DNA of 64,000 nt, taken from the NCBI GenBank assembly GCA_024742875.1, contig JANSXP010000026.1, forward strand, positions 1 to 64,000, written 5' to 3'. Position 1 is the stretch's first letter; each line of letters starts with the position of its first letter. A program made the position numbers and the translations under genes. The notes below the pieces were generated by a model. That model worked only from the letters and a program-made list of their open reading frames with translations, was not told where the DNA came from and did no database searches. Below, in pieces: positions 1,266-11,753 of the stretch. The DNA is from Planctomycetaceae bacterium. Its GTDB lineage: Bacteria > Planctomycetota > Planctomycetia > Planctomycetales > Planctomycetaceae.

Positions 1266-1757
1266 TCAGACAATCCACTCGGCCACGATTTCATGGACCG
1301 TTTCGCCTTCCAGAATTTCATAAGCGAGCAGGTGATCCACGATGGCACCTATCGCCGCCCAGTGGTTATCAGAAGACAGCGTGCGATGCAGCTCAATCGT
1401 CGTGTTTTCCAGATACTTCAGTCGCTGCTGGGGACGTGCCTCAAATGCGGCCGCCTGCCATGCCAGTTCCCAGTCCTGTCGCCACTCCGCGACGGTAGCC
1501 GGGTGAAACGGATCTCCGCGATGAATCATCTCCGCCACCGGCCCCGCCAAAGCCACGAGGATGGCGTTCTCCTGGAGACGCCGCTCTGAGAACTGTCCGG
1601 CGGGCCAGTGAATGGTCACATCGCCAAACCGTTTCGGACCATCGTCCCAGTCGGGATCGATGCTCAGTGACTGCACTTCACCACCCAGATAAATGCCAAC
1701 AAACGCGTGGCCCGCTTCGTGCCAGGCCGTGATTTGTTCTTCGCTGGATTGTGGCAT
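1266..1757 (-). CDS. Stand-alone M41 (FtsH-type) metallopeptidase-like domain protein
   Basis: This 163-residue protein carries HEAGH at residues 13-17, the HExxH zinc motif in the form typical of the FtsH protease domain (HEAGHA), followed by LVALAGPVAEMI, which resembles the helix after the zinc site in M41 peptidases. There is no AAA+ ATPase domain, no transmembrane segment and no signal peptide, so it is not FtsH. I chose the ATG at 1755-1757 because an upstream in-frame extension would overlap the P450 gene; with this start the two genes are 19 bp apart on the same strand and probably cotranscribed. Function is unknown: it could be a small cytosolic protease or an inactive relative. I did not assign the third metal ligand. 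Confidence 0.8.
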   Translation of the reverse strand: MPQSSEEQITAWHEAGHAFVGIYLGGEVQSLSIDPDWDDGPKRFGDVTIHWPAGQFSERRLQENAILVALAGPVAEMIHRGDPFHPATVAEWRQDWELAWQAAAFEARPQQRLKYLENTTIELHRTLSSDNHWAAIGAIVDHLLAYEILEGETVHEIVAEWIV

Positions 1758-1776
1758 GTTGCTGCAGTTGCTTCGC

Positions 1777-3219
1777 TCAGGCAGCTCGTCGGACGACCGC
1801 CGTTCGGGCTTCCGACGGCAGTTCCACCAGGTCATGAATCGAGCCGTGGACGGGGACCGTATTCGCAATCTGATCTGCCGCAATCAGGCGTGACGGGACG
1901 GAGCTGGTCGGCCCCAGCATGGTGGCAATCACACGGCCATCAACCGTTGCCCCCGACTCGATCTGAAAATGCCACTTTCGCAGCATCACGGCCAGAATCG
2001 TCCGCAGTTCCACCATCGCCAGCGATGCGCCGATACACATCCGCGAACCGGCGCCAAACGGCAGATACTCATACGCCGACGGTTTTGCATTCTCCCAGCG
2101 CTGCGGGAGAAAACGCGCATAATCGGCAAACGTATCACCACGATGATGCGTCATGAACTGGCTGAAGATCACCGGCGTTCCGGCCGGCAGATTGAGTGGC
2201 CCCAGCGTCACCGGAGCCACGGCCACCCGCTGTGAATACGACGAGGCAGGCAGCACCCGCATACTCTCTTTGATGACCCAGTCCAGATACGTACAGTTCT
2301 GCAGTTCTGCAAAATCGGGCACACCTGCAGCCGTACAGGAATCGAGTTCCTGCTGTAGCCTCGCGGCCACATCCGGATGCTGGGCCAGCAAAAACAGCGT
2401 CCAGCTCAGAGTGTGTGCCGTCGTCAAATGGGCGGCAGCAAACGTCAGCGTGGCATGGCCCACCAGTTTTTCGTCGCTCAATTCCCGTTCGGTCCCCTGC
2501 GCGCGAAACATCAGACTCAGCACGTCCGGTCGCTGCGCAGAATTTCCTGCCTGCCGATGCCGACGAAACATGTCCTGAATACTGACCTCCAGTTCGTCGG
2601 CCATCTGCAACAGCTGTTCGTACTGACTGGTGTATTCTTCGGCCGCCACCAGCGCCCCCATGCCGACTCGGTGGTTCTGCCGCACCCAGTGATCGATTCG
2701 CGTTCCCAGCTCTTCGGAATACTCACCATCAGTAATGCCGAACAGCAGGGCGCCCGTCATTCGCACCATAAAGGTGACCATTTCTTCGTTCAGGTCGTGC
2801 AGCTGACCGGTCTGCCAGTCGGCCATCAGGTCGGACGTCATTCCCACGATGGTCTCGTGATACTGCGGAAGCACCTTTTTGGCAAAGACGTCCATCATGA
2901 TGCGACGGGCATCCCGGTGCTCGCTGCCATTGACGCTCAATAACCCCGACGTCACACGACGCTGGGCCGATCGTCTTCCGCCACGCACCGCAAAAAAACG
3001 GGAATGAAAATTGGTGGGGTCGGTCAGCACGCGACGATTGAGCTCTGGTGAGAACACAAACGCGATTCGCTGCCCTTTTTCTTCCAGCACGGCAAGATCG
3101 CCAAATTCTGCCTGCAGACTGCGCATGCAGGCAATGGGATCTTCGGGGAAGCTCATCAGGCTTCCGTGCCGAACGGGTGGCGATTGATCTGGCAGCGGTA
3201 GTGTTTGAAAGTCGCCCAT
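1777..3219 (-). CDS. Cytochrome P450
   Basis: A 480-residue haem-thiolate monooxygenase. The haem-binding loop FGAGSRMCIG places the cysteine ligand near residue 395. The K-helix ExxR is ESMR near residue 316, and the I-helix region around residue 262 reads AAAHLTTAHT, a variant of the usual AGxxT oxygen-activation motif. There is no N-terminal membrane anchor, so it is probably soluble and needs a separate ferredoxin/reductase, which is not encoded nearby. Substrate cannot be inferred from sequence; overall it resembles the CYP family widespread in bacteria with fatty-acid or terpenoid substrates. It is transcribed away from plsY and probably with the small M41-like gene just downstream. Confidence 0.93.
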   Translation of the reverse strand: MGDFQTLPLPDQSPPVRHGSLMSFPEDPIACMRSLQAEFGDLAVLEEKGQRIAFVFSPELNRRVLTDPTNFHSRFFAVRGGRRSAQRRVTSGLLSVNGSEHRDARRIMMDVFAKKVLPQYHETIVGMTSDLMADWQTGQLHDLNEEMVTFMVRMTGALLFGITDGEYSEELGTRIDHWVRQNHRVGMGALVAAEEYTSQYEQLLQMADELEVSIQDMFRRHRQAGNSAQRPDVLSLMFRAQGTERELSDEKLVGHATLTFAAAHLTTAHTLSWTLFLLAQHPDVAARLQQELDSCTAAGVPDFAELQNCTYLDWVIKESMRVLPASSYSQRVAVAPVTLGPLNLPAGTPVIFSQFMTHHRGDTFADYARFLPQRWENAKPSAYEYLPFGAGSRMCIGASLAMVELRTILAVMLRKWHFQIESGATVDGRVIATMLGPTSSVPSRLIAADQIANTVPVHGSIHDLVELPSEARTAVVRRAA

Positions 3220-3537
3220 ATTCCGGTCGTCCCTGACGGAAATTGACTGTTGGCGTGCTGGTTGCAGTCAGCCTGTCACTGCCCGCGAAGCGTGGTGAAA
3301 CGTCTCGGGAAGCTCGGCGGCAGGCTGGAGCTGATTGACTTGGTTTGCAAGAGGATCTGCAGACGGACAGCGTCTTGCGGAACGCGGTCGGTGCCACGCC
3401 GGTTTCTATCGGAAATCCCCCAAGTTGAACAGAGAAGCTGCAGAATTCGGGGCCTGCTGCCGGATATTTGTCCCCTGGATGACTATGGTGAGCGGCATTG
3501 AGTTTGCCCAGTTTACAGTTCCACTGCGGATAATTTT
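3220..3537. other. Divergent intergenic region between P450 and plsY
   Basis: About 318 bases between divergently transcribed genes, so promoters for both should lie here. Short ORFs in the region have no recognisable product and overlap one another, and I treat them as chance. No convincing operator, hairpin or RNA gene was seen. Confidence 0.5.
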
Positions 3538-4242
3538 GTGAGCGTTGTTTTTGGCTGTTTGGTGGGGTTTCTGATAGGCGGCATCCCGTTTGGGTATCTG
3601 CTGGGGAGATCGCTGCTGAAGGACGATATCCGCAATCATGGCAGCGGAAACATCGGGGCGACCAACGTCGCACGCGTCATCGGCTGGAAATGGGGCGCTG
3701 TCGTCCTTGTTCTGGATGCCCTGAAGGGCATGCTGCCCACGTGGGCCGCCGTCGCGTGGGCTCAGCAGAATCAGCCCCAACTGCAGTATCACCTGGCTGT
3801 CGCCACCGGCATCAGCGCTATTGTTGGACACATGTATCCCGTCTATCTGCGACTGCGGGGAGGCAAAGGGGTGGCGACCGCACTTGGCGTTGTACTGGTA
3901 CTCGGCCCCCAGGCCGTCCTGGCAGCATTCGTGGTGTTTGCCACCATTGCATTTACCACAAGGCTGATCGGACTGGCGTCCATGCTGGCGGCACTGACCT
4001 ATGGCGGATGCCAGTTGTACCTGCTTCGGGGGGTCTGGCTGACATCGGACAAGTGGTCATTAACCCTGTTTTCGGTCGCCATTCCTCTGCTGATTATCTG
4101 GCGGCACCGCTCAAACATCATGCGGATGATCAAAGGGACAGAGCCACCGATTTCTGAGTCCGCGCGGCCACAGGATGCCACCGGCGATCATGAGCAGCCG
4201 ACAGCACAGCCATCTGACTCAGACAGCGACACCCGCTCTTAG
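3538..4242 (+). CDS. plsY: Glycerol-3-phosphate acyltransferase PlsY
   Basis: PlsY is an inner-membrane enzyme that transfers an acyl group from acyl-phosphate to glycerol-3-phosphate, the first step of phosphatidic acid synthesis. Family signatures are GSGNIGATNVAR in the first cytosolic loop, HMYPVYLRLRGGKGVATALG in the second, and several hydrophobic segments between them. The protein is 234 residues, longer than the usual ~200 because of a hydrophilic acidic tail (about 35 residues rich in Asp, Ser and Pro). The start is GTG at 3538. It is convergent with the SecA-like gene, 32 bp away. Confidence 0.93.
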   Translation: MSVVFGCLVGFLIGGIPFGYLLGRSLLKDDIRNHGSGNIGATNVARVIGWKWGAVVLVLDALKGMLPTWAAVAWAQQNQPQLQYHLAVATGISAIVGHMYPVYLRLRGGKGVATALGVVLVLGPQAVLAAFVVFATIAFTTRLIGLASMLAALTYGGCQLYLLRGVWLTSDKWSLTLFSVAIPLLIIWRHRSNIMRMIKGTEPPISESARPQDATGDHEQPTAQPSDSDSDTRS

Positions 4243-4274
4243 CCCGCTGTCTGTTCTGCCTGCCACAGCAGCCA

Positions 4275-6173
4275 TCAGGCATCATCTGCCGCGTTGCCAA
4301 ACAGGTTGTCCCGGCTGATGTCTCGGCGCAGTAACTCCGCCCGCGCGTGAAACTGCAGTTTCTCAGCGGCCCCCTGAAGACGCCGCAGCTGTCTGCTGAA
4401 GTCGACGTCGGCTTCGCCCGTCGCCCCGGCTTCCCGGCAGATGGCGGCTCCCAGCCAGCCGCCGTAGCGCTGGATCAGAGTGTCCTCGGCCGACACAAAC
4501 GTCTCCGCCGACCCCGCATTTCCCTGGCGAGCGCCGCGCCCCACCAGCTGGCGATCCATACGACTGCTCAGTTGACACTCAGCCACCACAACGTGCAGAC
4601 CGCCTCTTTCCAGGACCACCCTGGCAACGGGAATATCGGTGCCTCGTCCCGCCAGATTGGTTGCGATTGTGATGGCTCGCAGCTCCCCCGCGCGATGGAC
4701 GATGTCGGCTTCTTCTTCGTTCTGCAGACCATTGAGCAGCTGAAACACGAGTCCCCGCTCGGTGAACAGGCGGGCGAGCGCACAGCTTTCCGAGATCGAC
4801 TGAGTGCCAATCAACACCGGTCGCCCCTGATCATGCAGTTCCCGCACACTCTCCACGATTGCCAGATGCTTGTCAGCACGCGTGGCAAAAAATCGAGTTG
4901 GCCGCACAATTCTCTGAGACGGTCGTCGCAGGGGAATCTCCGCCACTTCGCTGCGATACACCACCCGCAGTTCCGCCTCGCAGCCAACCGCGGTCCCCGT
5001 CATTCCACACAGATTCTGGTACAGCCGAAAAAACCTCTGCCGTGTGATCTGCGCCAGTGATTCCTTCTCGGCGGTAATCGGCAGACCTTCCCGGGCCTCG
5101 ATCGCCTGGTGAAGTCCGTCCTGCCACGAACGATCCTCAAAGATACGTCCTGTGGTTTCATCCACAATGCGGACTTCTTCGTCTTCCACCACATAGTGCA
5201 CATTGCGACGAAACGTATGCTCGGCCCGCAGAGCCTGCTCCACATAATCGGTCCAGGGACGCTGCAGTACAGCGGTCGGGATCGCGATATCATCCGCGTA
5301 GCAGCGCTGCTGACCGTCCGGCAGCAGCTGCGGTTTTCCTGTCACCACATCAATCCGATAGTGCTCCTCGGGTTGCAGCAGCCCCGCCACCTCACAGGCA
5401 ACCAGATGGGCCTCATGATCGATCGCCCGATCGCCCTGCGATACACTGAGGACCAGCGGAGAAGCCGCATCGTCAATCAGGACGCTGTCTGCTTCATCCA
5501 CGACAGCATGCACCAGCCCCCGCTGCATGGTGGCCCGCTGATCAGGGCCGGTCTGCTGTAAATCTCGCAGGAGACGACTCCCGAGAGTCGCTGACTGCTC
5601 CCGACGCAGCGTAAGCTGATCGCGCAGGTAGTCGAATCCGAATTCATGGCCCGTGCCGTAGGTCACATCGCAGTCGTACGCCGCCTGCTTCACTGACGTC
5701 TCCCCCTGCTCGGGCGTCAGGCCGACCGTCATCCCCAGTTGCTGCATCACGGGAATCGCCAGATTGCAGTCGCGTTCAGCCAGATAGCTGTTCGGCGTCA
5801 TCACGTGAACGCCGCTTCCGGGGATCGCCAGAAAACCGGCCGTGGCGATTGCGACAAACGTCTTGCCCTCTCCCGTCTGCATCTGGGCGATGTGTCCCTG
5901 AGCCAGCTGCAGCACGGCGGTCAGCTGGACATCGTACAACTCGACCTTGTGTGCGCGGCGCAGTGCCTCAAACACAAGGGCGATCCCCGCGACCAGTTGC
6001 TCAGGCTGCCCAGACTGCGGTGCTGCGCAAAACTCTGTGCGCAGATGGGCGGCTTCACGAATGAGTTCGTCTGCGCTGAGAGGCTGCAGCGACCGGGCAA
6101 GTGACCGGACAGGAGCAACCATCGTTTCCGTCCCGCGTCGCACGGGCTTTCGGGCAAAGACGGCTCCCCACAT
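4275..6173 (-). CDS. Short SecA-like translocase ATPase
   Basis: A 632-residue SecA/DEAD-family motor. Walker A is MQTGEGKT (residues 98-105), the DEAD box region is VVDEADSVLIDD (near 224), and the second ATPase half carries TNLAGRGTDI (near 507) and QLVGRGARQGNAG, all SecA signatures. Housekeeping SecA is 800 residues or more. Here the sequence ends soon after the second nucleotide-binding fold, so most of the helical scaffold/wing region and the C-terminal Cys-rich SecB/zinc tail are missing. The gene starts 30 bp after the stop of the TolC-family gene, so the two are probably one transcript. I infer an accessory, specialised export role rather than general secretion. A primary SecA should exist elsewhere in the genome. 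Confidence 0.88.
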   Translation of the reverse strand: MWGAVFARKPVRRGTETMVAPVRSLARSLQPLSADELIREAAHLRTEFCAAPQSGQPEQLVAGIALVFEALRRAHKVELYDVQLTAVLQLAQGHIAQMQTGEGKTFVAIATAGFLAIPGSGVHVMTPNSYLAERDCNLAIPVMQQLGMTVGLTPEQGETSVKQAAYDCDVTYGTGHEFGFDYLRDQLTLRREQSATLGSRLLRDLQQTGPDQRATMQRGLVHAVVDEADSVLIDDAASPLVLSVSQGDRAIDHEAHLVACEVAGLLQPEEHYRIDVVTGKPQLLPDGQQRCYADDIAIPTAVLQRPWTDYVEQALRAEHTFRRNVHYVVEDEEVRIVDETTGRIFEDRSWQDGLHQAIEAREGLPITAEKESLAQITRQRFFRLYQNLCGMTGTAVGCEAELRVVYRSEVAEIPLRRPSQRIVRPTRFFATRADKHLAIVESVRELHDQGRPVLIGTQSISESCALARLFTERGLVFQLLNGLQNEEEADIVHRAGELRAITIATNLAGRGTDIPVARVVLERGGLHVVVAECQLSSRMDRQLVGRGARQGNAGSAETFVSAEDTLIQRYGGWLGAAICREAGATGEADVDFSRQLRRLQGAAEKLQFHARAELLRRDISRDNLFGNAADDA

Positions 6174-6203
6174 GATTTTATCCGTCAGTTGTGCGGGCCG
6201 CGG

Positions 6204-9200
6204 TCACCGATCAGAAGGCAGACGTCGCCACGTGGTCGGGGTCAGAGGAATCGGAACACTGCGGGACCGACCACTGGCCGGACTCTGCCGCGATGTTGTG
6301 CGGCCCTGCGGCCGGCCAGTCGAACGACCGGGGGCTGTCGCCGGCGACCGTCGTGCAGGTCCTGCTGCCGGTCTTTCGATCGAATAACCAATCTGAATGT
6401 TGCCGTTGGTCGGATCATCCAAAGCTGCTTCCACGTCTGTTGCCGGCTCCAGCGGCTCGATGTCCCCAAACAGGGGCGCCTGAAGATCACTGTTCAGATT
6501 CTGTGTCGACGGACCAGCACTGGACTGCAGCCGCTCAGAGACCCATGCCTGCTGTGTGCCGTCCAGCTTCGGCCGCGAATTCCGGGAGCGGAGCAGGGTC
6601 CCCATCTCTTTTCTCAGTTTGATCAGGGCGATCGCATGGTCGATTTCTGCCTGGACAAATGAGGCTTCTTCGTCCGCGAGACGCTCAAAAGAGTCCAGCA
6701 GATCTTCCAGCAGCAGCGTCGCGGAATCCTCCGCGGATGGAAGCACTTCAAAGCGGTCCAGCAGGTAGCGGGATTCACGATCGGCGGCCAGCATCGATTG
6801 ATACCGGCTGAGGATTTCTGAGTGAGCGGTTTGCACTTCACGGTTGGCAATTTCGACGTCCGTGAGGGACTTCTCAACTGTCGCCCGAAAGATGTTGACC
6901 GCGCGCTTCAGTTCCCACTGCCGCTGCTCATATCTGGCCTGAGCGGCTCGGTTGCCCAGCGGCACTTCAAATTCCAGACCAAGCGTGTAGCCCGGACGAT
7001 TGTCGGCAAACTGCCCCTGAAACGCTCGGTACACATTGGAACTGCCTGCCAGGTCGGCCACGTAGGTTTCGACAAGAAAGTCCAGTCGCGGCAGCAGTTC
7101 ATTGCGACTGACGCCCAGTCGCACGCCGGCCGCTCTCATACGGCGAATGGCCTCCGAGATATCCGGTCGGTTGGCCAGCGCGGTGTGCAGAATGGTCTGC
7201 ACGTCCGCTCCGTCAGTCAGAAAACCGGGAGGTTCTGTCGGCAGCAGTTCTGTCTGTCCGCCGTTGAGCATGTACGGCGAATTGACTCGCAGTCGCAGCT
7301 GAGCTTCTGCATCCTTCACTCGGGCCAGCGTCCGCTGAATGCGGGTGCGAGCGCGGGCGACAGCTGCGCGAGCTCGCAGGACCTGCCGTGGAATTGTGTC
7401 CACCTTGCTGCGTCCCTCAAGACGATCGAGCACATCCTGAGCGGAAGCCAGCAGCTTTTGACGCTGGAAGAATTCGGCCCGGGCACGATACAGGGTCCAG
7501 TAGGCTTCGGTCACTTCTGTCAGATGATCCTGCAGCGCGGACACCACTTCGTCTTCCGACGTGTTGGCCTGGATGCGGGCCAGAACAATTTCGCTTTCGT
7601 TATACGTGCGCCCCGCTCCATCCAGCAGCGGCTGTCGGTAGCTGAGTTCCAGACGTGTCGAGCCCTGGTTGTTGGGGACAAAGAATCGCGAGTTCTGATT
7701 CTCATGGCCGATTTCCTGAGCAAAGCGGAATTCGCCCCCCTCTTTAGTGCGTCTGCGAAACCCGCCCGCACCCAGCACCTTTCGTGTGAGCAGGCGGTCT
7801 TCACCATTGCCTGTCGTCAGGTCACTGCCCACAGGGTCGTTCAGGTCGTCGTAGGTTGTTTCAAGAAATCCCGTCCAGTCAAATCGAGCCATCTCCTGAG
7901 CGACCACACGGTACTGCACCTCTGGCTCCGCCTTGATGGCGATGACCTGGGGAGAGTAAACCATCGCGTCCTGCAGCAGAGAACTGACATCAACCGGATG
8001 CGAGTCAGCGTGCACGCCCATGCTGCCGCGAACCGCAGCAGTCCACCACGGCTCGAAATCGGCCGGGATGTCGGGCACGACAGGAATGACGGGAGACAGG
8101 GTGGGCTGCGGCGTTGCCATCACCCGCGACTTATACGGCTCCATCCAGCGATCGGCGTCCGCTTCCACAGTCGCACGGAAACCCGACGTCCCCGGAGCGC
8201 GACCGAAAAACGAATGCCCAAACGCGGGCCGTTCCACCTGTTCAGAATTGGCTGGTGGTGATGAATCCAAACCCGGTGGAACGACGATAATTTCGGCGTC
8301 ATTGCGGCTGGCTGGCCCCTGTATGGATTCGGGCAACGGATCGGGTACTGGCTGAATCGGAAAGACTCCCGGAGAAGCATTCAGCGGCAGCCCGGGCACA
8401 GGTTCTGAGGGACCATCACCGGGAAGCGGTGGTTCGTACCCCTGAACACCAGGGGCGATGGGAACCGGTGGCGTGTCTTCCACGATTGGAGGGGCAGGCA
8501 GCGGCACGTCATCAGCAATCGGTGCCGGCGTCGGAGTAATTTGCTGGACGGTGGAGCGAGACAGTGCGGGCAGGGACGGCGTGGTGACTGGCCGACCGGG
8601 TGGACCGGCAACAGGCCCCCGCGAAGGCGAGTCCTGAGCAAACACTCTGGGCATCGTCGCCAGGACATCCGGCGCTGCGGGCTCGTTCAACACGGCGGGA
8701 TCAAACAGCGGGAAAGCAGGCAAGTCAGCGTCTACGGGCTCCGTCATCGGCCGGTTTCGTATGGCGTCAGGAGTATTCTGATGCGCTGGCTCACCATGCG
8801 GCAGACTTCCTGCCGCGTCAGACGGCAGACTTCCTGCCGCGTCAGACGGCAGACTTCCTGCCGCGTCAGACGGCAGACTTCCTGCCGCGTCAGACGGCAG
8901 ACTTCCTGCCGCGTCAGACGGCAGACTTCCTGCCGCGTTAGACGGCAGACTTCCTGCCGCGTTAAGAGACGAACTCTCTGGCGCGCTCGGGGGCAGACTC
9001 TCTGGCAGCTCAAACCGAGGAAGTTGGTCTTCAGGATCCGGCAGTTGAAATGCGGGCAGCGTGAGCGTTTCTTCAGAGTCAGAAGTGGCAACCTGCGCCT
9101 GAGAGACACTGTGAAAAGGATGGGCCGCAGCAATCTGTTCGTGCACACTGGTGTGCGGCTGTCTGGGGAGAATTTGAATGCTGTGTTCCTCGACGTCCGG

Positions 9201-9575
9201 CCGCAGTGACTTGTAAATCAACTGCATCTGTCGCCCATCTGCTTCGTAGCGACGCGGATCGACGGGTTGATTCGTCCCTTCAGCCTCCGGGCTGGCAGAG
9301 CGGGCGATGGGCTGAGAAGTCCGGGGCGGAGTCGGCGTACCGTCGGTCGCTGAATGCGTGCCCGAGGCCTGTTCGCTGTCTGCGACAGAAGTTCCAAACT
9401 GCGGCCGCTGCAGACGAATGCCGGTGGCAGGCGCCACAGACTCCGTGTCGGCAATTAGCTGATCGGGATTGTCTGGAAACAGGGTGACGACCAGACTGCC
9501 CAGCGCGATCGCCATGACGGCGATGACCTGCGCCGGCCCCGAAGTTGGTTGGTTGTTTTTCAGAATGCGGAACAT
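6204..9575 (-). CDS. TolC-family outer-membrane channel protein with long Pro-rich N-terminal region
   Basis: A protein of 1123 residues from the ATG at 9573-9575. Residues ~15-36 form a hydrophobic stretch (AQVIAVMAIALGSLVVTLF), either a signal peptide or an inner-membrane anchor. Residues ~40-525 are low-complexity, rich in Pro, Ser, Ala and Glu, and include a run of AAGSLPSD octapeptides at ~204-258 encoded by 24-bp repeats. From ~528 to ~1015 there is an outer-membrane efflux (OEP/TolC) domain: two repeats of beta segments and long coiled helices, with SYRQPLLDGAGR and LEFEVPLGNRAAQARYE as recognisable strand-turn motifs. A basic Arg/Pro-rich tail follows. Canonical TolC is 450-500 residues, so the front half is an extra region. 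The longer ORF from 9704 lacks a better start. It is followed 30 bp later by the SecA-like gene; no HlyD-type adaptor or inner-membrane pump is adjacent. Confidence 0.9.
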   Translation of the reverse strand: MFRILKNNQPTSGPAQVIAVMAIALGSLVVTLFPDNPDQLIADTESVAPATGIRLQRPQFGTSVADSEQASGTHSATDGTPTPPRTSQPIARSASPEAEGTNQPVDPRRYEADGRQMQLIYKSLRPDVEEHSIQILPRQPHTSVHEQIAAAHPFHSVSQAQVATSDSEETLTLPAFQLPDPEDQLPRFELPESLPPSAPESSSLNAAGSLPSNAAGSLPSDAAGSLPSDAAGSLPSDAAGSLPSDAAGSLPSDAAGSLPHGEPAHQNTPDAIRNRPMTEPVDADLPAFPLFDPAVLNEPAAPDVLATMPRVFAQDSPSRGPVAGPPGRPVTTPSLPALSRSTVQQITPTPAPIADDVPLPAPPIVEDTPPVPIAPGVQGYEPPLPGDGPSEPVPGLPLNASPGVFPIQPVPDPLPESIQGPASRNDAEIIVVPPGLDSSPPANSEQVERPAFGHSFFGRAPGTSGFRATVEADADRWMEPYKSRVMATPQPTLSPVIPVVPDIPADFEPWWTAAVRGSMGVHADSHPVDVSSLLQDAMVYSPQVIAIKAEPEVQYRVVAQEMARFDWTGFLETTYDDLNDPVGSDLTTGNGEDRLLTRKVLGAGGFRRRTKEGGEFRFAQEIGHENQNSRFFVPNNQGSTRLELSYRQPLLDGAGRTYNESEIVLARIQANTSEDEVVSALQDHLTEVTEAYWTLYRARAEFFQRQKLLASAQDVLDRLEGRSKVDTIPRQVLRARAAVARARTRIQRTLARVKDAEAQLRLRVNSPYMLNGGQTELLPTEPPGFLTDGADVQTILHTALANRPDISEAIRRMRAAGVRLGVSRNELLPRLDFLVETYVADLAGSSNVYRAFQGQFADNRPGYTLGLEFEVPLGNRAAQARYEQRQWELKRAVNIFRATVEKSLTDVEIANREVQTAHSEILSRYQSMLAADRESRYLLDRFEVLPSAEDSATLLLEDLLDSFERLADEEASFVQAEIDHAIALIKLRKEMGTLLRSRNSRPKLDGTQQAWVSERLQSSAGPSTQNLNSDLQAPLFGDIEPLEPATDVEAALDDPTNGNIQIGYSIERPAAGPARRSPATAPGRSTGRPQGRTTSRQSPASGRSRSVPIPLTPTTWRRLPSDR
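8801..8968. repeat. 24-bp tandem repeat inside the TolC-family gene, seven units
   Basis: Units start at 8801, 8825, 8849, 8873, 8897, 8921 and 8945. The first five are identical (gcagacttcctgccgc followed by gtcagacg); the last two differ only in their final bases (gttagacg and gttaagag). On the coding (minus) strand each unit encodes AAGSLPSD or a close variant. Near-perfect identity suggests recent slippage expansion, and the number of units may vary between strains. Confidence 0.97.
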
Positions 9576-9765
9576 GAGACCTGCAGCGAAAGACCAGACC
9601 GCCTGGACAGACGGCTCAGTCGAAGAGTCGTCAAATCCCGATCGACCAGTGCAACAAAACCAGTCGCATGCAAACGCTGAAGCCGGATCGTTGAGACAAG
9701 TCAACGCAGATCACCCAAACCCACAAAATGTAGAGGTCGCGGCAGAGACCAGTCAGGTGCGTCAC

Positions 9766-10626
9766 CTACCGTGCAGCGGCAGACTCTGCCGTCGCTTCCA
9801 CCGCCTGTTGCAGCCGGTCAAAGTTGCCGGTCAGTGCCTCCACTATGGACGAAGAGTCCGCCAAACACAGGTCAATCCCCACATTTCGGGGATCGACGGT
9901 CTGACCCGAAGATTCCGCGGACAGCAGCAAATCGGCATTGCAGTCAACAAGGTCCTCGACAGTGGCCTGTGGATCGACAGCCACAGTCTGCCAGCCGAGT
10001 CGTCGCACGAGGTAGTTCAGCTGTTCATCTGCGATCATCACCCTTCGCGGATGCAGTGCCAGCAGGTCAGCCCGATCGCCAAGTTTCTGCAACTGCGCAG
10101 CCAATTGTGCGACCGGCGCTGCCGCAGGATCAGCATCCCCGGCAGCCACGTTCTGCAGAGACTGCAGCAACAGTAAGGCGAGGTCGGGATCAACCCAGAC
10201 GGCCCAGAGATGGTCGGCCGACCGTTGAGCACCGTCGGGACCGTGCTGATGGGCGACCGCCCCCGCGGTCGTAAGCAGGCGCTCCTGCAAATCGTCTGAA
10301 AGATCTCGCTGTCTGCCAGACGGCAGGGAGACCATGTCACGCCACGGCTCGAATCCGGCACCATGCCAGATCACCAGCTGCGCACTTTGAAGTTGCTGCA
10401 GAGATTCACGGTCGGGCACGCGCGATTCCCCCGGACTGACGTCGATCAGAGAAACAGACGCGGTGTCTCCATAGACGGCCACGGCGAACTGCTGCATGAC
10501 GCGGCTCGTGACCACGATGCCCGACGACTGAGTCGAGGGCCCTTCTTCAGAGGCAGGTTGAGCCGATCGACCACAGCCAATACCAATCGCCAGCATGATG
10601 CCGCAACACAACAGTCGTGCCGTCAT
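9766..10626 (-). CDS. ZnuA/TroA-like metal-binding lipoprotein
   Basis: A 286-residue protein with a lipoprotein signal (LAIGIGCG; Cys near residue 18). It matches the metal ABC-transporter substrate-binding family (SBP_bac_9) in layout: the early WHGAGFEPW corresponds to the usual N-G-x-x-x-E-P-W region, a short His-containing linker HQHGPDG precedes DHLWAVWVDPD, and ADLLALHPRRVMIADEQLNYLVRRLGW matches the central helix and third-ligand region. The His-rich loop is much reduced. No ZnuB/ZnuC permease or ATPase genes are adjacent. The gene overlaps the upstream dehydrogenase by 4 bp (ATGA), so translation is coupled. It could be a metal chaperone, or the binding protein of a transporter encoded elsewhere. 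Confidence 0.78.
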   Translation of the reverse strand: MTARLLCCGIMLAIGIGCGRSAQPASEEGPSTQSSGIVVTSRVMQQFAVAVYGDTASVSLIDVSPGESRVPDRESLQQLQSAQLVIWHGAGFEPWRDMVSLPSGRQRDLSDDLQERLLTTAGAVAHQHGPDGAQRSADHLWAVWVDPDLALLLLQSLQNVAAGDADPAAAPVAQLAAQLQKLGDRADLLALHPRRVMIADEQLNYLVRRLGWQTVAVDPQATVEDLVDCNADLLLSAESSGQTVDPRNVGIDLCLADSSSIVEALTGNFDRLQQAVEATAESAAAR

Positions 10627-11594
10627 GATGGATTCACCGGATGTCGCAGCGGCTTGCCGGCCATCCCCAGCAACACATTGTCGGCGGCGATCTGCGCCAT
10701 CGCGTCCCGAGCGGCAACCGTGCCGCTGCCAATATGCGGCAGAATGACGCAGTTGGGAAGCTCATGCAGTTCGGAATCGGAGGGCAGCGGTTCCGGATCG
10801 GTCACGTCGAGACCGGCAGCGAAAATCTGCCCATTCGCCAGTGCCGCTGCCAGAGCCGCCTGATCAAGCACGCCGCCACGCGACGTATTCACCAGCACCG
10901 ATGTCGACTTCATACGGTCAAACGCCGCGGCGTCGAACAGGCGTTCTGTCTGCGGATTGAGATCTGTGTGTACGGAAATAAAGTCACTGATCTGCAGCAG
11001 TTCATTCAGCTCCACACGCCGTGCCTGCAGTTGATCGTCGACCTCAGGCTTGGGAGAACGACTGGTGTACACAACGTCCATGTTCCAGCCGTGCCGCAGC
11101 CGCGCGGCAGTGGCAGCGCCGATTCGTCCCATGCCCACAATACCCAGCGTTTTGCCCGCCAGATCCTGGCCAATGAATCCCATAGGCTCCCATGTCTTCC
11201 ACGCCAGCTGAGCAACATTTTCGATGCCCTCCCGAAAACATCGGGCGGCCGCCAGCAGGAGCCCCACTGCCACATCAGCCGTGGCGTCGGTCAGCACATC
11301 GGGCGTGTTGCCCACCGCGATCCCGCGTCGCGTCGCCTCTGCCACATCGATATTGTTGTAGCCAACCGCAAAGTTGCTGACGACCTTCAACTGTGGTCCC
11401 ACGGCGTCAAAAAAAGCGGCGTCTATGCGATCACTCAGCAGCGTCACAATGCCCGTGCAACCGGCGGAAATTTCCGCCAGTCGACTGGCATCCGGTGGCA
11501 GCTGCTCAGGCCAGACATTGCAGTCTGCCTGCTCGCGAATCCTGGCCAGACCGGATTCCGGAATACTGCGGGTAACAAAAACACGGTCAGACAT
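10623..11594 (-). CDS. D-2-hydroxyacid dehydrogenase (glyoxylate/hydroxypyruvate reductase type)
   Basis: A 323-residue NAD(P)-dependent reductase of the D-isomer 2-hydroxyacid dehydrogenase family. The N-terminal substrate domain carries VVSNFAVGYNNID, the Rossmann fold carries LGIVGMGRIGAA, and the catalytic region contains LVNTSRGGVLDQ followed by the Glu in DPEPL and the His in LPHIGSGT. This fits reductases of glyoxylate, hydroxypyruvate or glycerate rather than PGDH, since there is no ACT domain. I use the ATG at 11592-11594; an in-frame GTG at 11613-11615 would add seven residues. The stop codon overlaps the next gene's ATG. Confidence 0.92.
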   Translation of the reverse strand: MSDRVFVTRSIPESGLARIREQADCNVWPEQLPPDASRLAEISAGCTGIVTLLSDRIDAAFFDAVGPQLKVVSNFAVGYNNIDVAEATRRGIAVGNTPDVLTDATADVAVGLLLAAARCFREGIENVAQLAWKTWEPMGFIGQDLAGKTLGIVGMGRIGAATAARLRHGWNMDVVYTSRSPKPEVDDQLQARRVELNELLQISDFISVHTDLNPQTERLFDAAAFDRMKSTSVLVNTSRGGVLDQAALAAALANGQIFAAGLDVTDPEPLPSDSELHELPNCVILPHIGSGTVAARDAMAQIAADNVLLGMAGKPLRHPVNPS

Positions 11595-11753
11595 GGGCGG
11601 AGCTTCTACAGACACTGTTCGCCGCAGTCGACGACCGACTACGATTTCCCAGTCAGTATAGCCACTCGTGAGACCAATTCACGCCGCCGCGGATCTGCAG
11701 TTCACCGGATCGCCAAAGCGTCCACTCCTGAGATCGTCCGCCCTCTGGTCTGG

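Follow-up and report, generated by a model that had tools for sequence, protein, structure and literature searches.

A tolC and short secA gene pair of a Planctomycetaceae bacterium: possible parts of a split exporter for giant DUF4347 proteins

The stretch of DNA analysed here, called the window below, constitutes the first 64,000 nucleotides of contig JANSXP010000026.1 of a Planctomycetaceae bacterium (assembly GCA_024742875.1), whose genome (G000; G, C and L denote genomes, contigs and loci) has 8.2 Mb in 168 contigs. On its minus strand lie a gene for a TolC-family outer-membrane protein and, 30 bp downstream, a gene for a short SecA-type ATPase (Table 1). Open reading frames, Pfam matches and motif positions agree with the initial annotation, in which a TolC protein of 1123 residues and a SecA of 632 residues with intact ATPase motifs had been reported as neighbours; tolC is read from the ATG at 9575, and an alternative in-frame TTG at 9704 would give 1166 residues. 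The same annotation had remarked on the lack of an adjacent HlyD adaptor or inner-membrane pump and, in keeping with this, a Pfam scan of the neighbours at 1266-11615 found no HlyD, ATP-binding cassette (ABC) or resistance-nodulation-division (RND) genes among them. The pair is of a kind already known, that is, the secondary SecA_DEAD module of Kamneva 2015. We give about even chances to the reading that the two proteins are the outer-membrane exit and an accessory ATPase of a split, type-I-like exporter for giant, leader-tagged proteins with a DUF4347 domain.

The window SecA aligns by its residues 24-618 with residues 28-606 of a 781-residue SecA2. It keeps the SecA_DEAD domain, the preprotein cross-linking domain and the second P-loop, and no Pfam match to SecA_SW (scaffold/wing) was found in it; the earlier impression that most of the C-terminal half was missing has to be corrected, the lost part being the scaffold/wing. 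It scores 499 bits with the NCBIfam model of canonical SecA (cut-off 800) and at best 482 bits with that of SecA2 (cut-off 1085), the other SecA2 models also staying below their cut-offs, and its closest solved relatives are SecA2 proteins. With SecA_DEAD present and SecA_SW absent it belongs with the secondary SecA_DEAD proteins that Kamneva, Poudel and Ward (2015, PMC4452313) described in planctomycetes and other phyla. According to the parts of that paper covered here, the genes have HlyD, GAF-HlyD and M50-HlyD as linked partners and in some cases OEP/TolC as well, module partners can sit elsewhere in the genome, the group was placed near actinobacterial SecA2, and the broader role of the module was termed “completely unknown”. 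In our SecA tree, which does not include the sequences of that study, the window SecA falls in a 28-row clade (support 100/100) holding SecAs linked to the HlyD/GAF-HlyD/M50-HlyD trio, and within it in a window-type clade (100/100). The nearest named relative among the fetched loci is a Fuerstiella metagenome-assembled genome (SecA 65% identical). Short SecA gave at least 95 short-frame matches in at least 52 of the 61 genomes of the family, and G000 itself has four SecA_DEAD matches, one in a canonical-length frame (1181 residues) and three short.

The initial annotation had asked about the pairing in other planctomycetes, and within the SecA clade of the window it is conserved: tolC lies directly upstream of secA, with gaps of -4 to 208 bp, in 19 of 27 loci of the window SecA clade, and anywhere in the locus in 22. 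Parts of the trio adjoin secA in 18 of the 27. The order differs in L205 and L206, where tolC comes after the trio, and in L056, where it comes after M50; the L052 and L200 loci start at a contig end. These loci look like secretion modules, with no ABC or RND gene among the proteins scanned, which supports the earlier idea of an export module; a working without adaptors is not supported, given the adaptor genes beside secA and a matching trio elsewhere in the genome. Eight loci are of the window type (SecA tree 100/100) and have no adjacent trio, in L046 and L196 because, or perhaps because, the contigs end; seven of the eight hold tolC beside secA without the trio. Since PMC4452313, in the parts covered, allows partners elsewhere in the genome, only a complete linked module is denied for the window. 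The matching trio lies on contig C93 (L098; HlyD 1830-2783, GAF-HlyD 2780-4729, M50-HlyD 4704-6893). Its M50 protein groups with those of G042, G053 and G047 (SH-aLRT 100; second tree 100/100), genomes which carry the window-type SecA clade, and the trees of SecA, TolC and M50 agree. The presence of this trio on a separate contig suggests one module split across the genome, with tolC and secA in the window and the remaining genes on C93. In G005 (86% complete) the pair is present, but the fetched M50-HlyD locus, among the matches listed, falls in another clade.

The second module of the same genome is split otherwise: C133 carries secA and the trio without tolC, and the TolC of C37, divergent from a giant DUF4347 gene, groups with the TolCs of modules matching C133 (with L206, 93/92). 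In addition, contig C23 (L097, 4498-12879) holds a GAF-HlyD/M50-HlyD/HlyD cluster whose TolC gene is divergent and whose stretch contains no SecA; similar clusters occur in G005 (L105) and G042 (L161), and their M50 and TolC proteins form separate clades. In L207 (4083-13897) two short SecA genes flank a single HlyD/GAF/M50 trio.

The window TolC contains two OEP stretches above the cut-off, as expected of the family, preceded by a long linker in which Pro, Ala, Ser and Thr make up 46% of residues 60-500. A 24-bp tandem repeat encodes an 8-residue repeat in this linker. When N-termini were compared by eye, TolC relatives had plausible signal-peptidase sites after a similar hydrophobic stretch (TFA-QD, VVA-QE, VSA-QQ), those of another sub-clade had a lipobox, and LIA-DT of the window protein stood at the position of LSA-AS and IAA-SE in close relatives. 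The N-terminus of the window TolC is thus probably a signal peptide. Furthermore, the linker is much shorter in TolC homologues of 621-664 residues, that is, its length is not conserved. An uncleaved inner-membrane anchor followed by a Pro-rich tether across the envelope, which had been proposed for this protein, is accordingly unlikely, the anchor in view of the cleavage-like sites and lipoboxes and the tether in view of the short linkers.

Table 1. Positions of the two genes and of features within them (window coordinates).
Feature	Position	Strand	Basis or remark
tolC, TolC-family (OEP) outer-membrane protein, 1123 residues	6204..9575	-	ORF (open reading frame); Pfam OEP E 4.3e-24; placed in a tree with TolCs of other modules
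N-terminal segment (residues 1-43), probably a signal peptide	9447..9575	-	hydrophobic stretch and LIA-DT, compared by eye with relatives
Pro-rich low-complexity linker, about residues 44-510	8046..9446	-	17.9% Pro in residues 60-500; length variable in relatives
24-bp tandem repeat within the linker, 6.8 copies, 99% matches	8799..8962		
First OEP stretch, residues 619-762	7290..7721	-	Pfam
Second OEP stretch	6600..7199	-	
Short secA, secondary SecA_DEAD type, 632 residues	4275..6173	-	Pfam SecA_DEAD E 4.7e-80, P-loop_SecA, SecA_PP_bind; no SecA_SW; clade placement
Walker A (GEGKT)	5859..5873	-	starts near residue 101; TGEGKT invariant in 10-row alignment
DEAD box, residue 226	5487..5498	-	
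Preprotein cross-linking domain, residues 259-359	5097..5399	-	Pfam
NLAGRGTDI motif, residue 506	4632..4658	-	

The M50-HlyD protein of these modules is the part for which a reading function can be proposed. HExxH and the second metal-site (DG) motif are invariant in all 19 aligned rows, and each of the 19 gave a Peptidase_M50 match at E up to 1. For the L205 protein, a model of the first 125 residues (pLDDT 86.8) has a predicted fold that may be like that of RRE (recognition element of ribosomally synthesized and post-translationally modified peptides, RiPPs) and PqqD domains: Foldseek placed complexes of lasso-peptide B1 proteins with leaders at ranks 2-6 (E 0.004-0.05), and VIA-align gave Z scores of 9.7, 9.6 and 9.6 for B1 proteins, 9.2 for LynD and 8.6 for PqqD. 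Unlike the known domains, this RRE-like domain is fused to a membrane protease-adaptor, and PqqD is not among its Pfam families at E up to 1. The DUF4347 core was modelled with pLDDT 75-94 by blocks (whole model 56.1). It resembles chain G of 9qpe, itself named DUF4347 (Z 11.8), and perhaps CHAT proteins (SAVED-CHAT Z 9.7, Csx29 Z 8.1; Foldseek alone not significant). A flavodoxin- or receiver-like fold was considered and rejected, the matches being numerous but middling. His177 and Cys220 are invariant in all nine aligned DUF4347 rows.

Modules of the window SecA clade often flank giant DUF4347 genes, one of which is divergent from tolC-secA in G053 (L047). L109 is among the 27 clade loci only through its DUF4347 gene, and without it DUF4347 is found in 8 of 26. 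The domain is present in 19 of the 61 family genomes: of the ten whose SecA relatives score highest, nine have it (the miss being G005), versus 10 of the 51 others (Fisher 4.4e-5). Among the matches listed, at least 6 of 34 DUF4347 places (35 rows, a second stretch in one gene being dropped) lie within 10 kb of short SecA or M50-HlyD, where 0.52 would be expected. Among 80 named loci fetched by SecA alone, which include some with canonical Bacillota SecA, nine contain DUF4347 (seven are planctomycete loci, and the other two are gammaproteobacterial, from Methylomonas sp. LW13 and an Ectothiorhodospiraceae metagenome-assembled genome), versus none of 40 random regions, two of which (L161, L174) contain module genes by chance; the DUF4347 gene on the L052 contig lies outside the fetched stretch and is not in the count of nine. 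Moreover, in an independent set of 294 genomes of the phylum, 8 of 13 strong DUF4347 genes (in 6 of 10 genomes) lie within 12 kb of M50-HlyD, against 0.107 expected, and M50-HlyD at E 1e-50 or better occurs in 9 of the 10 DUF4347 genomes versus 46 of 273 others (Fisher 1.9e-6). From the 26 DUF4347 rows of this set were dropped four of G000 and one of G060, genomes that the first set already contained, as well as eight weak ones at E 8e-13 or worse (G142, G126, G093, G152, G181, G062, G195, G270), and a gene at 13.9 kb from M50-HlyD (G096:C403:16072) was counted as a miss; with the weak rows kept (by eye), 8 of 21 are near M50-HlyD, which is present in 12 of 18 genomes. Of seven giants chosen by size beside modules in other phyla, with no control, six carry Ig/cadherin, Calx-beta or RTX repeats. 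A classic ABC exporter was sought beside the DUF4347 loci C37 and C134 of the same genome, and none was found in ten neighbours.

DUF4347 proteins mostly start without an obvious Sec signal and have instead a leader stretch ending in LExR.L.SA or LExR.LFDA. The motif is present in 28 of 31 proteins (L306 counted by eye), and its Glu, Arg and Leu are invariant in all nine aligned rows; the exceptions are L284 and L297, which are without the Arg, and L307, which has no motif and looks like a Sec signal. The FD-type leader stands beside all four clade-2 modules (L205, L206, L207 and C37 of the same genome) and beside none of eight other clade-A modules (L047, L107, L109, L198, L199, L201, L204, L297), a split (P 0.002, clades from the M50 tree) which was noticed after the fact. 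An advance prediction was then available for genomes in which only other clade-A modules are known: the FD-type was found in 0 of 11 readable leaders, the leader region being readable in 17 of 20 DUF4347 regions fetched (not in L281, L288 and L294). Of the genomes with both module clades, G042 has it in 1 of 3 leaders and G017 in 0 of 1. To this extent the prediction was borne out. Outside the clade, distant classes have FD/LD-type leaders too (L296, L298, L301, L303, L304, L306), so the rule, if real, is local and no universal code is claimed. Judging from leader type only, the giants on C134 and C92 of the same genome, with leaders LEQRLLMSA and LEERLLMSA, may be the window module's own cargo. 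As a separate observation, three DUF4347 ORFs of 676-695 residues lie near M50-HlyD and OEP genes in L298 (G096:C403), and their LEERVLFDAAP leaders are almost the same.

The leader resembles the LEPR-XLL domain (NCBIfam NF012209), an N-terminal LExR-LL-type motif on very large proteins, but most scanned DUF4347 leaders stay below its cut-off, and the model was above cut-off in 2 of 10 neighbours scanned (L080, L096). In L080 a haem-peroxidase with RTX repeats and LEPR-XLL above cut-off (5885-8581) lies just upstream of the short-SecA module. Among the matches listed, 2 of 115 NF012209 places are within 10 kb of short SecA (0.62 expected, not significant) and at least 9 of 115 within 10 kb of short SecA or M50-HlyD (1.40 expected); presence of any short SecA versus that of NF012209 in the 61 genomes, likewise among the matches listed, gave Fisher 0.052.

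In the favoured explanation TolC would be the outer-membrane exit and the short SecA an accessory cytosolic ATPase, and the inner part would be encoded on C93, consisting of the HlyD adaptor, the GAF-HlyD adaptor and a membrane protein that combines an RRE-like domain, an S2P-type (site-2 protease, M50) domain and an HlyD arm. The cargo would be the giant proteins with a CHAT-like DUF4347 domain behind an N-terminal LExRxLxSA leader. The RRE-like domain would read the leader, ATP hydrolysis by a SecA-type motor (the short SecA or, in genomes lacking it, canonical SecA) would push the chain through the M50/HlyD path, the M50 site may trim the leader, and the HlyD arms and TolC would carry the chain out. 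What the data show are the gene pairing, the agreement of the trees, the nearness of the proposed cargo genes, the intact motifs and the predicted folds; the assembly, the direction of transport, leader recognition and the choice of which protein pushes, forms the pore or cleaves are what we infer.

Several results weigh against this explanation. No cargo gene adjoins the window pair, and no pore was identified for the module. In the structural comparisons, GdmN and Rv2067c, unrelated enzymes whose end domain is similar, score Z 10.1-10.5 against the RRE-like domain, and no Foldseek match reached E 0.001 in either model search (RRE-like domain, DUF4347). Two further sets of short-SecA loci contain DUF4347 in 1 of 40 and 0 of 40, so the DUF4347 link is limited to the window clade and some others and does not hold for short SecA generally; presence of any short SecA versus that of DUF4347 in the 61 genomes, among the matches listed, gave Fisher 0.25, which is not significant. 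The genome statistics treat genomes as independent and ignore kinship. Near short SecA, giant ORFs of at least 1000 residues (13 in 624 kb and 10 in 595 kb versus 18 in 777 kb of random regions) and the generic LEPR-like motif (7 in 626 kb and 2 in 597 kb versus 4 in 780 kb random) are not enriched. The DUF4347-OEP-HlyD-GAF-M50 clusters of G065, G151 and G183 occur in genomes whose SecA is of canonical length only, so the short SecA is an added part, not essential to the core; G085 and G099 are also without short SecA, G295 (81% complete) gave no SecA match, and the short form is present in G096, G109, G115 and G292. Lastly, DUF4347 is not confined to the present module, since one protein with this domain serves Pseudomonas as a type VI effector.

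Of the alternatives, an exporter made of TolC and short SecA alone, with an uncleaved N-terminus anchored in the inner membrane and the Pro-rich stretch spanning the envelope, would suit the lack of an adaptor gene beside the pair and the seven window-type loci with tolC and secA alone; set against the cleavage-like sites or lipoboxes of relatives, the variable linker and the matching adaptor trio in the same genome, it is very improbable. Hardly more credit can be given to the idea that the pair is the orphaned remnant of a module with no current function, as might be thought from the trio being no longer adjacent and from the lack of a cargo gene beside the pair, because the motifs are intact, the pair is kept in those seven loci and the three protein trees agree.

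Two further explanations are better founded, and each is still unlikely. The short SecA could be a SecA2-like accessory working with SecYEG, TolC an ordinary efflux protein and their shared operon a matter of envelope co-regulation only. Its solved relatives and the placement by Kamneva 2015 (in the parts of PMC4452313 covered) speak for this, as do the 26 OEP match stretches in the genome, which leave many possible TolC partners; the protein is nevertheless far below both NCBIfam cut-offs and without SecA_SW, and HlyD/GAF/M50 genes accompany secA in two thirds of the clade loci (18/27). To the same degree it may be supposed that the module exports and trims a small, bacteriocin-like ribosomal peptide, the DUF4347 giants being separate neighbours, for example in defence or regulation. 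RRE-like and M50 parts, here combined with HlyD, are at home in such systems, and the P450 gene near the pair has a sub-cut-off match to ApyO, a RiPP family; but many more DUF4347 genes lie close to M50-HlyD than expected, and the leader types, as noticed after the fact, divide along the module clades.

The proposed split exporter can be compared with several known systems. Type I secretion (HlyB-HlyD-TolC) uses a C-terminal signal. The present module shares with it the TolC exit, HlyD-type adaptors and, in several lineages, large repeat proteins nearby; it differs in its proposed N-terminal signal and in the lack of an ABC transporter among scanned proteins, that is, no ABC partner was found among the scanned neighbours of the window pair or of C37 and C134, the whole genome not being searched. 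With accessory SecA2 systems it shares a second SecA-type ATPase whose best solved matches are SecA2, and it differs in the missing SecA_SW, the scores below the NCBIfam SecA2 cut-offs and the linkage to TolC/HlyD genes. The likeness to the secondary SecA_DEAD module, so far as the covered parts of PMC4452313 describe it, extends to the short SecA without SecA_SW, to HlyD, GAF-HlyD and M50-HlyD in relatives and sometimes to OEP; unlike it, window-type loci hold only tolC and secA together, and the present proposal adds a cargo family, a leader and an RRE-like domain, which were met neither in the covered parts of that paper nor in a term search of it. A search of open-access literature, mostly of titles and abstracts and without subscription papers or preprints, gave nothing recognised as joining the module to DUF4347 or LEPR-XLL.

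More tentatively than the split exporter itself, we consider it possible that a distinct secretion system is represented here, in which one membrane protein, uniting an intramembrane protease and an HlyD arm with a leader reader of the RiPP style, would export giant CHAT-domain proteins by an N-terminal leader through a TolC exit, with a SecA-derived ATPase replacing the ABC transporter in many lineages; parallel machines in one cell would use LExRxLMSASP and LExRxLFDAVPD leaders, each cargo going to its own machine. New here are a candidate cargo family, a candidate N-terminal signal and a candidate reader domain for a module first noticed in 2015, and because these are now named the module becomes testable. 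If the reading is true, it would also suggest a route out of the cell for those very large proteins of planctomycetes that have no obvious Sec signal peptide, and the secretion designs known so far would be joined by one that combines a SecA-type motor and a TolC exit.

The scanned neighbours of the pair (1266-11615) encode a ZnuA-like protein, a 2-hydroxyacid dehydrogenase, a cytochrome P450, a glycerol-3-phosphate (G3P) acyltransferase and a weakly matched peptidase-like protein. The gene for the ZnuA-like metal-binding protein (9766-10626, minus strand) lies upstream of tolC at a distance of 190 bp and in the same orientation; it was rejected as a module member, other genes taking its position in L045 and L047. 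The P450 (1777-3219, minus strand) is nearest to NCBIfam ApyO of RiPP biosynthesis (283 bits, cut-off 525), and a small protein (1266-1883, minus strand) has an HEAGH motif and sub-cut-off matches to M41 and M50B peptidases.

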